From Spirogloea muscicola (lineage: Eukaryota > Streptophyta > Zygnematophyceae > Spirogloeales > Spirogloeaceae): a stretch of DNA of 50,460 nucleotides. The notes below the pieces were generated by a model. That model ran no database searches and was not told the origin of the DNA. It was given only the letters and a program-made list of their open reading frames with translations. The stretch covers positions 193,471 to 243,930 of the forward strand of contig WELB01000183.1 in assembly GCA_009602725.1 (NCBI GenBank), written 5' to 3'. This document shows positions 1 to 13,589 of this stretch, piece after piece (positions within the stretch are counted from its first letter, which is position 1; each line of letters opens with the position of its first letter). Both the position numbers and the translations under genes were made by a program.

Positions 1-4920
<4,920 letters not shown>

Positions 4921-5319
4921 TCTGCTTAAGAGGCTTGTGAACCTGATACATGGCTCACCGTTGAGGCATCAATTCACACTTACATTGAGGATTTCAGCGA
5001 CCCTCTCTCATGACTAGTCCGGTCTCAAGGCCAGCCGAAGTCATCACTGAGCATGGGAACCATACCTACAACAAGTGATCATTCATAGTCATACATTGAA
5101 TATAGCTTGTAAAGATCGAAATGGAAATCTTTCATATTTGTAGCACTGGAATCCTGCAGCGTATCATCATTTTGACATGACGGCCCAGTGACTGTTTGTT
5201 TTGAGTACACAATCAATGGTTGTTTCACTGGCTCTGTGTGAGTAACTTTCACAGCAGATAACGAACTTCTGTTTCCTGTCGCCGTCGCCACTGCTGCCAC
5301 CGCCGCCACCGGTGAAAGC
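4921..5319. other. Intergenic, RadA 3' flank
   Basis: This stretch lies between the RadA stop and the inverted methyltransferase repeat. I see no gene. It would hold the RadA 3' UTR, but no polyadenylation signal could be assigned with confidence. Confidence 0.5.
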
Positions 5320-6115
5320 TCAGCGGGCATCGAGCACGCATTGGTCATGCCAAGAAGGCATGGGTAGGCGTGAAGGTCTGGGCTCATGCTTGGACCCGTA
5401 CACTGGCATAACCTCTCTTCCAGCATCTAGCGCCATATATGCATATAATCCTGGAGGCCGGTATTGTTTGTTGATGCAGATCTGCATCATCTTTGCCGGT
5501 GCCAAGTTGGTCCAATGAACCCTTCTGCGGTCTGCCAGCGAACCAACAAAAGCCGCATCCAATATTGTAGGAGGCCCAAAGATGTCGCAAACGGTCGTAA
5601 AAGCAAACCGCGCCAAGGGTTGGCTATCTCGAGGTTCAACATTCTCAATAATGTAACCAACCGGTCGGGTCAGCCTTGCTTGTATCGCGTGCATAACTTC
5701 AAACATGGGTATGAAAAGAGCTGTGTCCTTCTGAGCAAACCCGAGGCGCCTTTGCTCATACCGCTGAAACCCTGACACGGAAAACCTGCCACAATCAAAT
5801 CCACTGAAGGAAAGCGGTGCAGCATTCCGGGCTGGGCTGCTTTGGTAATGTTTTCGGGCAACATTGTATCCCATTAGGCGAAGCTTAATGGTTGAAGCAA
5901 AGTCGGGTATCGGCGGGTATGGCGGGTCAGGTATTGGTGGAGCAAGTAGTTGATGTGGTGTTGTGCGGTTTGACGAGCTTCATCGTCAATGTCAATGTAG
6001 AAATACCTGGCCACCTTGATGTGGCTCTGACACGCTGCCTTCAACCCATTCGCAGTGCCACCAAACAGCTCCGCCATCACAATGCCTTTTTCTGGCAAAT
6101 GCCAGTCAATTACAC
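5320..6115 (-). pseudogene. Decayed DNA cytosine-5 methyltransferase, left (minus) arm
   Basis: Read on the minus strand, the copy contains C5-methyltransferase motif I (VMAELFGGTANGLKAA), an intact motif IV with the catalytic PCQ (Cys codon at 5775-5777), motif VI (GYIIENVEP) and a motif VIII-like RRRVHWTNL. It is broken twice. An in-frame TAA lies at 5874-5876 between motifs I and IV. An extra two bases after GFSGMSKG shift the frame into ASGLLRRT, while the true continuation GFAQKDTALF is found in another frame. It also carries a short in-frame insertion before YPTLL that the right arm lacks. No N-terminal regulatory domain is visible. Family membership is clear from the motifs. Origin (retrotransposon cargo, virus or host gene) cannot be told from the sequence alone. 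Confidence 0.85.
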
Positions 6116-6869
6116 CATGGTAGAAAACCCCCATCCAATCCACCATCTCGGTGTAATTGACTGGAATTTGCCAGAAGAAGGCATTGTGATGGTGGAGCTG
6201 TTTGGTGGTACTGCGAATGGGTTGAAGGCAGCGTGTCAGAGCCACATCAAGGTGGCCAGGTATTTCTACATTGACATTGGCGACGAATTGATGACGAAGC
6301 TCGTCAAATCGCACAACACCACATCAACTACATGCTCCGCCAATACCCGACTTTGCTTCAACCATTAACCTTATCCTAATGGGATACAATGTTGCCCCAA
6401 GACATTACCAAAGCAGCCCAGCCCGGAATACTGCGCCGCTTTCCTTCAGTGGATATAATTGTGGCAGGTTACCTCTGTCAGGGTTTCAGCGGCATGAGCA
6501 AAGGCCTCGGGTTTGCTCAGAAGGACACAGCTCTTTTCATACCCATGGTTAAATTTATGCACGCAATACAAGCAAGGCTGACCCGACCGGTTGGTTACAT
6601 TATTGAGAATGTTGAACCTCGAGAAAGCCAACCCTTGGCGCGATTTGCTTTTACGACCATTCGCGACATCTTTGGGCCTCCTTCAACACTGGATGCGGCT
6701 TTTGTTGGTTCGCTTGCAGACCTTAGAAGGGTTCATTGGACCAACTTGGCAATGGCAAAAATGATGCAGATCTGCATCAACAAACAATACCGGCCTCCAG
6801 GATTATATGCATATATGGCGCTAGATGCTGGAAGAGAGGTTATGCCAGTGTACGGGTCCAAGCATGAGC
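5382..6869. repeat. Long inverted repeat, arms about 735 bp, spacer about 35 bp
   Basis: The left arm 5382-6115 is the reverse complement of the right arm 6151-6869 at high identity, with a few substitutions and small indels. Anchor pairs are 5390 with 6861, and 6115 with 6151. The spacer is about 6116-6150. Each arm carries one methyltransferase pseudogene, arranged head to head about the spacer. The element sits between the 3' ends of two convergent genes, RadA and UBA3. No target-site duplication or terminal repeat was recognised at its edges. Confidence 0.9.
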
Positions 6870-6900
6870 ACCACTTCAAATATTACAGTATGCACACAGA
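6150..6900 (+). pseudogene. Decayed DNA cytosine-5 methyltransferase, right (plus) arm
   Basis: This is the mirror copy of the minus arm. Motif I (VMVELFGGTANGLKAA) lies near 6190-6235, motif VI GYIIENVEP near 6590-6620 and motif VIII-like RRVHWTNL near 6725-6750. Three lesions are visible. An 11-base insertion follows YFYIDI near 6277-6290 and shifts the frame. The in-frame TAA at 6377-6379 is the same stop seen in the other arm. The motif IV proline is replaced by leucine (LCQ, 6473-6481). From 6389 to about 6900 the frame is open, so the catalytic core without motif I could still be translated, though activity is not expected. Homology to the other arm ends near 6869. Further reading frame past 6900 runs antisense into the UBA3 last exon and is not part of this gene. 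Confidence 0.85.
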
Positions 6901-7003
6901 GCACACAAATTGCTCCACAAAGGAAGGAGTAACCACGTTTAAGGTAATTGTTTTTTGCCCATTGGCTCGAGATGGTCACTATGTTCCCAGAGGAGGTATG
7001 GAA

Positions 7004-10000
7004 TCACGTATCAAAGGAGATCTGCACACGGAGCACGCCCACGAGCTTCTTGTCGTTCACGTTGAGGATGCCCCCTTGCCCACCCATGAGCTCGACCAAA
7101 GGGCGGCCAAGGTTCTCGTGCGTCATCTGCTCCAGGACCGGCGGCTGCTGCATGTAGAGGTTGGTCCCCCGATGCGACACGCTGGGCTGTGCCAGCTTTC
7201 CGCTGAAGCGCGGATCGTCCACGAGCTTCTGTATCAACTGAGGAGGCAACATTGGTTCAGCACACCTGCAGGCACAGCTAGAGCCAATGCTATACTGCCA
7301 CTGCAGGAAGAGAAGTCTGTCGAAACTTCAAAGACAGCTTTGCACATATCGGCACTTGATTGCATATTGTGACAGTATTCTGCCCTTTTGCCAGCGCACA
7401 GAAGGCAGGGGCCTGGAGACAAAGTTGGACACGCTGGACCTTGGACCTAGGCCACAAGAGTATGCGGGTTATGCAAGGCACCTCTCGCAGCGTCAGGGAC
7501 GAGGGCACACGAAGCGGCACGCTGGGGCTGCAGACGATGCAAGCGGCATCTTTCTCGTATGACACTGTGTGCGTGTAGACGCCCTGACTGCCGACATACC
7601 TGAACAGCCACAGAGTGGGTCGGCAGCCCTCGTAAGATAGACTCATAAACCCCAATTTCCAGACTTCATCAATCAGCAATATCTCTAAGCAGCCTCAGGA
7701 GCTTAAGATTTCAAAGCTGAGCAGACAAGGAAGACCAATATCCAACAATGACATGCTCTTACGATATGATGGACATGCAAGCTACTGCAAGTCAGATACC
7801 TTGCAGATACTCGCAACACAGCATTTGCATCGGGCTCAGCAGACGAGCGCCTACGGCCAACCTCAGCTGGTCGTGAGAAGCAAGCTTACATCATATAGTT
7901 GTCCATGCCAGCGCTGCACATGGTGGCGGTCTTAAGCGTCTCGAGCGCACACGTGGCAGCGATGATTGCATTAGAAGAAGCAATTGCAGGGATGATGTTC
8001 TTAACGACCCCCTGCAGTCAGGAGGCGCATCAATCACCCTCCAGCTCATGATGGCATTGAGAAGTTGGATCGCACTCGGCAGAAATATCAGATTGGGATG
8101 ACTCATGTGCAGACTACATTGTTAATCTACACAAAGCCGGCAACTAGTGCACAAGCTTTGTTACAAGGGTTCTGAAAGCCTGCACACAACTAACAGCCAG
8201 TACAAATGGGCAGTGATGTTGCCTGAGTAAGAGAGTAGGTGACCCCTGTGATGCTGAACAGCTCTGCTCGTCTCAATGCCTACTCACATGCAAAACAGAT
8301 CATGCCTGAGATCCCAGACATCACCCACTGAGGAGGTCACAAACACAGGCGAGCGAGTGAAGGTTGCTGACCAGCGAAGCAACTCAACAAGCTGTGTGGT
8401 CGGAGCTAATATTGGAGCTATTAGTTAGCCTGCAGGAGTAAAGTCATGCCACAGTACATCACCTTGTTATACACCCACTTCATGTGCTCAGCGTCGTCCG
8501 CGTCAAACTGGCTATCTGCTCGCTCCTGAATACAACAACTAGAAAAATATTGTGTCATGCAGAACAGGCATAAGTTACAAGAGCTCACAGGCTATGCTTT
8601 CCCGCATGTCAAAAAGAGGACAGAATATCGAGTCAACTGTATGGGATTGCACTCTCGCTCTGACACAGAGCCTGGCGGTCCAGGTAATCAGTCTCTGAGA
8701 AGCTCATGAGCTGCGATGCAAGGTGCAACAGCTTATTACCTGGCCCCAGAGGATGAGGTGAGCGTACTCGATGCAGTGAGCCGGGGAGCGCGGCGTCTCG
8801 GCGAGCGTGCAGAGAGGGTACGTGACCTGCGGCGGGAAGAGCCACAGTGTGCAGTGGAAGCACGGCGTGATGCCGGGCAGGATGACTCTCGCGTGGCCCC
8901 GGAAGCCCTCCGTCCCGCCGTCCACCATCGGCGTGACGCTCGCCAGGTCCAGCTCACCTTCCTCGCTGTACTCTGGTCGCGGAAGCTGCCGAAGCAGGGT
9001 TGTCAGCGCTATGGCGGAACTGTGTCAGACACTGACACAGGCTCAGCGGAGGCTGCGCACCTTCAGATCTACAAACGAAACTCCACAACTTGTGGACCAG
9101 AAAACTCATCTTACTACAACAAACTCATACAAAACCACACCTGATAACACCTAACAATCAAGCTCCCAAAGATCAGATCAGGGCCCCAAGCTTGCTACTC
9201 ATACGAGAGTCCTCCATTTCTTGACAGCCAATGCTTCTCCAGCATTCATGAAGACCCTGTCTAAGAATGACTGCATAAGGCAGCATGTCCAGCATGCCCA
9301 CCTAGGAAGCTGCAGACGACTGAGTTGATCCAGCCCCGGGCCTCGAGCGAGTCCAGGCCCAGGACGATGATCTGGAAGGTGCGGTAGAAGTCGGGGTCCT
9401 TGTCCTCAATGCGGCAGAAGTGTGGCGTGACGTTGACGCCGGAGACGCGCTGCATGACACGTTCTGCGGCCACCTCCGCCTTGGCCTTGCCCACATCCTG
9501 CATCCTGCGAGGCCACACTGAGCCGGTCGGTCACTGCTGCAAGAGCTTGCAACTCACAAGAGCTTGTCTGCAAGCCATGATAGCAGGCGGAGTCTATACG
9601 GACAAATACAAAAGCCCTGCTGCAAATTAAACAGACGCTCAGGCCCTGGAGAATTCGTCAAAGCCAGTCATCTCTGTGAAACCATGTGGGAGTGTAGCCC
9701 GTTGCACTCATAGCCGTGCCAATACCAAGTGATTATTGACTGCTGGCCAGAAGGAGAGCGTGCCCACTTCAAGCAGGTGCTGAGGCTGTATGATTGTGGA
9801 CCTTTCTGTCGCTCCGGCCTTGTCAGTCAATGCTTGCTCTCTGGGTGCATGCAAGACTTGCCCAGAGGACCAGATGAGGTTGCGGGTCTCCGACTTGGGG
9901 GCAGACGGACCGGAACAGGAACTGGCGGTTGAGGTTGGAGACGTCGATGGTGTCCATGTCGATGACGTCGATGGAGCCGAAGCCCGAGAGCGCGAGGTCC

Positions 10001-10074
10001 TTGAGGAGCTCGCAGCCCAGGCCGCCGGCGCCCACGACCAGCACGCGGCAGCTCTCCTGCAGGAACTCCCGCAC
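7004..10074 (-). CDS. UBA3: NEDD8-activating enzyme E1 catalytic subunit
   Basis: UBA3 pairs with APP-BP1/AXR1 to adenylate NEDD8/RUB and pass it to UBC12. Eight exons fit in phase on the minus strand: 10074-9911, 9504-9302, 9008-8740, 8525-8463, 8279-8223, 8011-7890, 7599-7482 and 7237-7004. Visible features are the nucleotide-binding segment [37 protein letters not shown], the GWINS segment, [17 protein letters not shown], the zinc-site CxxC (CFHC), and the catalytic Cys in [11 protein letters not shown] (codon 8809-8811). The C-terminal E2-binding fold ends [19 protein letters not shown]. The first one or two exons, about 40 residues before VREFLQES, were not identified. They may lie near the GC-rich gap at 10582-10608. 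The intron after 8223 begins with GC. Identification is firm. Confidence 0.94.
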
Positions 10075-10338
10075 CTGCAGCCATGGCCGCCCCGATCGGC
10101 CTCGCTGTAAGTCAGCAAGAAGAACTTCTTTGTTTGCTTAAATATCTGTATACTTTATTGTATAATATATAGTGTTTAATTGTATATCTGGTGTTATGGT
10201 ATGTCACTATCTAACAATGACTAACACTTCATAACTAGCCCACCAAGGCCGGATGGAGCTCGCAGCAAGCACCATGGGCCTAATTATGGCCGCCACCGGC
10301 AAGGCCTTGGAACCCGTGGAGCGACGAACAAACGTCTC

Positions 10339-10581: not shown

Positions 10582-10637
10582 NNNNNNNNNNNNNNNNNNN
10601 NNNNNNNNCGCCGCCGCCGCCGCCGCCGCGGCCGCGA
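10539..10637. repeat. GGC triplet tract around an unresolved gap
   Basis: A run of GGC triplets enters a 27-base N block (10582-10608) and GCC triplets leave it. The switch from GGC to GCC across the gap means the two sides are complementary and could form a long hairpin. That would explain why it was not sequenced. Confidence 0.8.
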
Positions 10638-13105: not shown

Positions 13106-13589
13106 TCTCGCGACGACGGCGACGCGCGCGGGGGCCCGGCCAGCGGCGAANCGCTCATTTAATACCAGCAGCCGCGATCTCTTCTCTCCGCCCCTCCGCC
13201 CCTCTGCCGCGCGCGGCGGCGGCGGCGGCGGCGGCGGCTGCGGCGGCTGCTGTGGCGACGGTCATGGCCACCGCAGTCTCCAGTAGGCGGTAATGGGGGC
13301 GCTGACCTGGCACTCGTACGCCACGTGGGAGTGTGAGAAGTTGCCATGTGGCAAGGTTTAACACTAAGCACCATTTTGCAGGATCGAGGAGTCGCCCAAA
13401 AGTGCTTGGACTCTTCTCCCAGCCACCCGTCAATTCGGCCGCGCTTATCTTCCTGGGCGACTGTGGGGTCGCCTGAAACCGAAACCCTACACCTCACTGC
13501 TGAATTTGCTGCTGGGTTGCCATAGGAGACGAGCAGCTTTCAGAAGCCAGCCGGAATGAGATACAAGGTTGGGCAGAAATCAACAGTCG

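Follow-up and report, generated by a model that had tools for sequence, protein, structure and literature searches.

The window that we analyzed, a 50,460-nt stretch of contig WELB01000183.1 of the alga Spirogloea muscicola (assembly GCA_009602725.1, positions 193,471 to 243,930 of the forward strand), contained an insertion in which two copies of a DNA cytosine-5 methyltransferase (DNMT) domain lay head to head. The domain came from a Ty3/Gypsy retrotransposon, a related site in the genome was empty, target-site duplication was absent, the two arms were sisters, the turn carried a short microhomology, and neighboring copies of the element elsewhere recurred in inverted and not in direct orientation. 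The reading that we favor, with a probability of roughly 0.7, is that the palindrome is a fold-back copy of retrotransposon (c)DNA that was captured at a chromosome break; within that reading, we infer the homoeology of the empty site, the cDNA donor, the capture at a break, and the end joining.

Structure and limits of the insertion

Self-BLAST of the window identified an inverted repeat at 5382-6869 with 88.5% identity over 1528 gapped columns. When the arms were aligned with each other, 687 identities and 38 mismatches were observed in 725 aligned columns, and there were an additional 44 gap columns. The first-pass annotation had described two decayed, head-to-head DNMT copies with arms of ~735 bp that were ~35 bp apart. 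The palindrome was real, and the sizes were close to the ~740-bp arms and 33-nt separation that we found, although gapped local alignment narrowed the spacer to 14 nt. The limits given at that time, 5320-6900, did hold the inverted DNMT arms, but the inserted unit was somewhat different (Table 1). No second inverted repeat with arms of >100 bp was detected in the window via self-BLAST (E up to 1e-8, low-complexity filter on), and an Rfam scan of the window yielded no match above the gathering scores.

Both arms matched DNMT residues. The Pfam domain PF00145 scored in the right arm (E = 3.6e-6) and, in a six-frame search, in the left arm (22.6 bits). The reading frames were broken in both arms, and motif IV of the right arm was LCQ, not PCQ (we take I, IV, VI, and VIII to be the appropriate labels for the DNMT motifs).

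Table 1. Features of the insertion and its surroundings, in window coordinates
Feature	Position	Strand	Basis
Whole insertion, ~1.6 kb, absent from C89 (L057)	5273-6879		Alignment to C89
5' leader piece of the element, 108 bp, sense; both ends are junctions	5274-5381	+	Homology to other copies
Left arm, antisense DNMT domain, approximately residues 323-584 of the 704-aa L018 frame	5382-6116	-	Arm alignment, DNMT matches
33-nt loop at the turn, bordered by CACC (6113-6116) and GGTG (6150-6153)	6117-6149		
Right arm, sense DNMT domain; outer end ~10 bp beyond that of the left arm	6150-6879	+	Arm and C89 alignments
Left flank, 81% identical to C89	1524-5272		Alignment to C89
Right flank, 85% identical to C89	6882-10113		Alignment to C89
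Last coding exon of the UBA3/ECR1-like gene (presumed name) with its stop codon (7004-7006), in a stop-to-stop stretch	7004-7327	-	E2_bind match

The right flank had one other match in the genome, C89, and the left flank matched C89 and had a third, short match at C265. The two flank blocks in Table 1 aligned to C89 with just 2 bases between them, and the limits of the insertion were set from this alignment. The empty site in C89 read CTTCTGT/ACATAAC, and the window read CTTCTGT, the insertion, and then ATATTAC. Thus, target-site duplication was absent, there was no clear loss of host bases, and the outer joins were near-blunt, with a doubt of 1 to 2 bp since the flanks differ by 15-19%. In other copies of the element, homology continued past both ends of the leader piece, which indicated that this piece had also been cut out and joined.

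Based on collinearity at 81-85% identity, C89 is probably a homoeologue from genome triplication; a recent whole-genome triplication is reported for S. muscicola (PMC10487979), and its published assembly is given as 174 Mb (PMC11096116).

The window had several other features. Positions 1-124 were a run of 124 A nucleotides, and 227-265 was a short, imperfect AAACCCT array, a telomere-type unit in a contig-internal location. A run of N was located at 10582-10608 and single N positions at 13151, 31749, 37512, 41285, and 49738. Most of these were in or near GC-rich triplet arrays, and they probably reflect assembly uncertainty at triplet repeats.

The arms belong to a DNMT-carrying Ty3/Gypsy element

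In related loci (e.g., L013, L018, and L024), the element had the order Gag, protease, DNMT, RT-RNase H, and integrase. Protease and DNMT shared one open frame in L013 (805 aa) and L018 (704 aa), with RT/RNase H and integrase located downstream. The DNMT, RT, RNase H, and integrase domains were confirmed via Pfam, Gag and protease were named by their position and the look of their sequences, and two L024 frames that we tested had no Pfam match. This homology assigns the window arms to the DNMT domain of a Ty3/Gypsy element with the Gag-protease-DNMT-RT-RNase H-integrase order; the window copy is decayed and retained only leader and DNMT pieces. Hence, the DNMT core that the first-pass annotation had considered free-standing was a domain of a Ty3/Gypsy polyprotein, as in L013, L018, and L024. 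The same annotation had likened it to DNMTs of algal and dinoflagellate retrotransposons; the retrotransposon origin was borne out, but the host is a zygnematophyte alga, not a dinoflagellate. Nor was the DNMT core unique, a case that, combined with half the average read depth, had been named earlier as counting against the palindrome: the genome contained at least 112 DNMT pieces.

When the L018 DNMT was compared to solved structures, DNMT3A was the best match (E = 3e-5), and HhaI was close behind. L018 also contained a 302-bp direct repeat (98% identity) at 567-867 and 9063-9362; no terminal direct repeat as clear as this one was present at the element ends in the other 12 loci scanned. Searches for protein homologues yielded none for the window frame 6380-7372 (0 of 1459 candidates). 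With the L018 query and a 7-row alignment (7996 and 7993 candidates scored, respectively), a single homologue was recovered, the Spirogloea gene model P0001. This is EukProt model SM000028S10147 (s28:645431-648364), and DNMT and Gag pieces of C28 were located at those coordinates. All but one of residues 376-795 of the model were matched by exact 12-residue words from the C28 piece, and the remainder of the model lay outside the piece. A model name of this form, SM000027S09592, is also given for S. muscicola in PMC12290401. Because the sole homologue found was a Spirogloea model, no Klebsormidium or other relative was placed.

Divergent DNMT sequences were observed in the long open frames of L030 (C2:498800-501200) and L034 (C361:39100-41500), which shared 30% and 32% identity, respectively, with the frame of L013. 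These frames suggest that the element family includes more than one DNMT lineage.

Sister arms and a 4-bp inverted microhomology at the turn

A tree of 11 rows placed the two arms as sisters with support of 98/99. Derived states, which were scored at sites with agreement among at least 70% of six relatives, were shared by the arms at 14 sites, restricted to the left arm at 15 sites, and restricted to the right arm at 14 sites; the arms carried different changes at 2 sites. This pattern is what would be expected if one parent molecule had folded back and the arms had then decayed about equally. The extra ~10 bp at the outer end of the sense arm indicated that it had not been copied in full from the present left arm. 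We infer that the insertion occurred well after the window and C89 regions parted because the arm branch lengths in the tree summed to 0.060 per site, compared to 78-80% identity to C89 in the largely non-coding sequence next to the insertion, and because the C89 site was empty.

At the turn, the CACC/GGTG pair was separated by 33 nt. L009 had the same pair at the same spacing and place, and an intact pair was absent in the five other relatives compared; these comparisons were made for the turn of the window palindrome alone, and a 4-bp match can occur by chance. We also considered ATGGT/ACCAT, which is located inside the loop, as the microhomology, and it was dropped because CACC/GGTG fit the turn and L009 better.

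Inverted pairs recur across the genome

The genome search covered 153 Mb in 471 contigs, and copies were taken from the best-scored candidates, with unequal coverage of the domains (DNMT, 131 of 281; RT, 127 of 698; integrase, 118 of 618; Gag, 115 of 339). Copies located ≤2 kb apart and overlapping in the element by ≥20 residues were designated a neighboring pair. Prior to counting, 131 RT rows were split by identity (63 at ≥46% and 68 at ≤43%), and 14 of 132 integrase rows were dropped because they had 29% identity and belonged to another Gypsy family.

Among the matches listed, there were 26 inverted neighboring pairs and 0 direct pairs. The DNMT domain accounted for 18 inverted pairs among at least 112 copies; 9 were head to head and 9 were tail to tail, a split that includes links between neighboring palindromes at C66 and C91. 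These 18 pairs corresponded to 14 places on 13 contigs, with C66 and C91 contributing three pairs each. Gag yielded 6 inverted pairs among at least 94 copies and integrase yielded 2 among at least 78; RT of the DNMT-Gypsy family yielded 0 among at least 48, and RT of other Gypsy elements yielded 1 among at least 68. Direct pairs were absent in every case. When the matches listed were counted row by row, 2 direct DNMT pairs appeared, and we judged them to be a tandem-duplicated palindrome at C91. In the top 57 rows of each table, there were 7 inverted pairs for DNMT, 3 for Gag, 0 for integrase, 0 for RT, and 1 for RT of other Gypsy elements. Per copy, inverted pairs were more common in DNMT (18/112) than in Gag, RT, and integrase combined (8/220; Fisher P = 1.4e-4, from lists that are unequally complete and pairs that are non-independent).

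We performed an arm test on 15 inverted repeats of family pieces, leaving out L041 and the non-element inverted repeats of L015, L017, L019, and L045, among others. The arms were clearly mutual nearest relatives in 13 cases; the margin was narrow for L014 (96% versus 94%), and L042 failed (94% versus 96-98%). In nine palindromes, gapped alignment yielded turn spacers of 14-54 nt (seven palindromes) or 108-113 nt (two palindromes), and the spacers in five looser palindromes were 171-333 nt. As a control, we counted compact repeats in 48 stretches (289 kb). Fourteen compact inverted repeats were in or at the element (117.5 kb) versus four outside it (171.9 kb), and there were three compact direct repeats, one of them the tandem palindrome of L028 (described below), which is in the element; the stretches are a non-random sample, as all but the window and L057 were chosen for DNMT, and C66, C91, and C19 were chosen on account of matches that had an inverted appearance from the outset. 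Most terminal repeats were left unmasked, so that some of the four outside repeats may belong to the element.

Several loci had more complex arrangements. L028 (C91:238600-243000) carried a DNMT palindrome in tandem (634-2024 and 2023-3413) as 1391-bp units that were 99.9% identical, followed by a sense Gag piece, which suggests a recent duplication of the palindromic unit. In L014 (C38:62300-72200), a long Gypsy-DNMT element, the segment at the DNMT/RT boundary (3634-4519) occupied its usual place in reversed orientation and was bordered by inverted duplicates. In L011 (C20:553700-563600), a segment from the DNMT linker and protease region, folded back on itself, was located at approximately 8120-9860, inside the integrase of another Gypsy-DNMT copy. 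L015 (C135:55200-65100) contained an inverted pair of a ~300-bp repeat at 3021-3611; elsewhere, this repeat was found mostly as single units (best 40 of 94), some near other Gypsy RTs. The L015 pair is one of the four compact inverted repeats counted outside the element. Because it belongs to another repeat, the process that makes palindromes is not exclusive to the DNMT-Gypsy family.

Formation of the palindrome

The insertion consisted of overlapping inverted pieces of one donor, with a 4-bp microhomology at the turn and near-blunt joins lacking a target-site duplication, and it agrees well with the inverted insertions at yeast breaks (see below) in all but length. In the fold-back capture that we favor, a strand, most simply retrotransposon cDNA, would have folded back at CACC/GGTG, within the 5' portion of the DNMT domain, and its extension would have produced a hairpin with two DNMT arms. 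The hairpin product would then have been joined to the 108-bp leader fragment and captured via end joining at a chromosome break behind the UBA3-like gene, with no target-site duplication. This capture would have taken place after the C89 region separated, and the arms would have decayed independently from that point on.

The two DNMT polarities were equally common among the matches listed, so no single reverse-transcription step explains all of the pairs. This balance also fits an alternative that we consider unlikely for the window, although it fares best among the alternatives: a full or truncated element was already resident; after a break within it, the resected end folded back and was copied, and the remaining element sequence disappeared later. 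Similar pairs would be expected from chromosomal fold-back of this kind, which counts against a cDNA donor, and C365 (L021) and C17 (L009) do resemble elements in which one end carries a short copy in inverted orientation. At the window locus, only two observations oppose it, namely, the cleanly empty site in C89, which had no element remnant, and the ~10 extra bp of the sense arm, for which the present left arm could not have been the full template. Some of the palindromes may have a chromosomal origin. The excess of DNMT pairs over RT and integrase pairs, drawn from unequally complete lists, is unexplained by a neutral mechanism.

The neighboring gene and a possible role in silencing

The downstream side of the neighboring gene faced the palindrome, and its stop codon was 124 bp from the insertion. 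ThiF matches of this gene were found in minus-strand frames within 8707-10137, and E2_bind was terminal; we presume that this combination corresponds to UBA3/ECR1. Pfam yielded no match for the minus-strand frames 4322-4663, 4650-4907, 3386-3679, 3876-4073, and 1531-2103 or for the plus-strand frame 8780-9151.

The predicted fold of the palindrome RNA was -1329 kcal/mol, compared to a mean of -453 kcal/mol for 6 mononucleotide shuffles and a range of -465 to -588 kcal/mol for same-length pieces of the window (n = 6). A read-through transcript from the UBA3-like gene would contain the predicted hairpin, a form of RNA that the first-pass annotation had proposed as a source of small RNAs against methyltransferase genes, and, by analogy, a hairpin RNA like that of maize Mu killer is possible. 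Mu killer consists of part of a transposase gene duplicated in inverted orientation, and it illustrates that a locus built in this way from a transposon gene can act as a silencer in trans (PMC3440606). A Spirogloea counterpart would produce RNA via read-through or from an inner promoter, the RNA would form a ~740-bp hairpin that yields small RNAs against DNMT-Gypsy elements, and the locus would be kept by selection. We regard this as quite unlikely. The predicted hairpin geometry, the position of the palindrome in the path of a read-through transcript, and the higher frequency of inverted pairs in DNMT noted above (non-independent pairs among the matches listed) are all in line with it. However, the arms decayed about equally and with frame-breaking indels, as neutral sequence would, and the read-through model is disputed for Mu killer itself in PMC3440606, where silencing is tied to antisense transcripts from a promoter inside Mu killer. 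On a genome-wide scale, the inverted repeats concentrated in the DNMT domain might constitute an RNA-based memory against DNMT-carrying retrotransposons, in which copying accidents make hairpins and those yielding small RNAs are retained; we hold out little expectation that this is so.

A non-autonomous mobile element of the foldback or MITE type, with a fixed palindromic structure and a captured DNMT, is very improbable and was rejected. Several palindromes of the DNMT domain do exist, but they differ in center, length, and polarity and share no edges, there was no target-site duplication, and a second full-length arm pair was present in 0 of 24 genome matches. Finally, although the draft assembly contains N runs, an assembly or amplification chimera is hardly credible because 38 substitutions and several indels separate the arms, both of which have outgroup-polarized private changes, and because the edges of the unit coincide with those of the empty site in C89; moreover, comparable structures with arm identities of ~79-98% occurred at other loci.

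Comparison with known systems

DNMT-carrying Gypsy elements (in Klebsormidium) and the copying mechanism were already known, each separately. New here are recurrent, mainly inverted pairs in a zygnematophyte, together with a clean empty site; the open literature on Spirogloea retrotransposons and methyltransferases and on LTR-retrotransposon palindromes, as far as it was accessible and with most subscription journals falling outside this coverage, contained no prior report from Spirogloea. The window provides a natural, long fold-back insertion from retrotransposon sequence for which a related, empty site is available for comparison, and roughly a dozen similar loci in the same genome have neighboring inverted pairs and hardly any direct ones. 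These loci make it testable whether the palindromes were made by retrotransposon copying or by chromosome repair, and whether an alga of the land plants' sister group turns palindromes into small RNAs.

Ty3/Gypsy elements that encode DCM are reported to occur in charophytes (PMC6338049). Like the Spirogloea family, KnitGypsy-Dnmt3 of Klebsormidium nitens has a C5-methyltransferase domain in a Gypsy Pol frame and many copies in a streptophyte alga (PMC5890265). Unlike it, the Spirogloea family has many decayed and inverted copies. The two are likened by architecture; the main text of PMC5890265 makes no mention of inverted copies, palindromes, hairpins, small RNA, or siRNA.

Like Mu killer, the Spirogloea locus has a segment of a transposon gene in inverted duplicate, with a host gene next to it (PMC3440606). 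Mu killer is a silencer of a DNA transposon that was demonstrated by genetics, whereas the Spirogloea locus derives from a retrotransposon and is known from sequence.

Templated insertions at yeast breaks are the third system for comparison. In yeast, double insertions whose two pieces derive from one locus are described as commonly inverted and very rarely in the same orientation; the inverted ones have inner microhomologies of 2-11 bp and outer microhomologies of 0-4 bp, and breaks can also receive Ty cDNA (PMC11724301). The yeast cases are experimental, and their inverted pieces are tens to hundreds of bp long (medians of 50 and 150 bp), whereas the Spirogloea insertion is natural and aged, with arms of ~740 bp. 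The two systems have in common the overlapping, opposite pieces of one donor, the short microhomology at the turn, the near-blunt outer joins, and the rarity of pairs in the same orientation.
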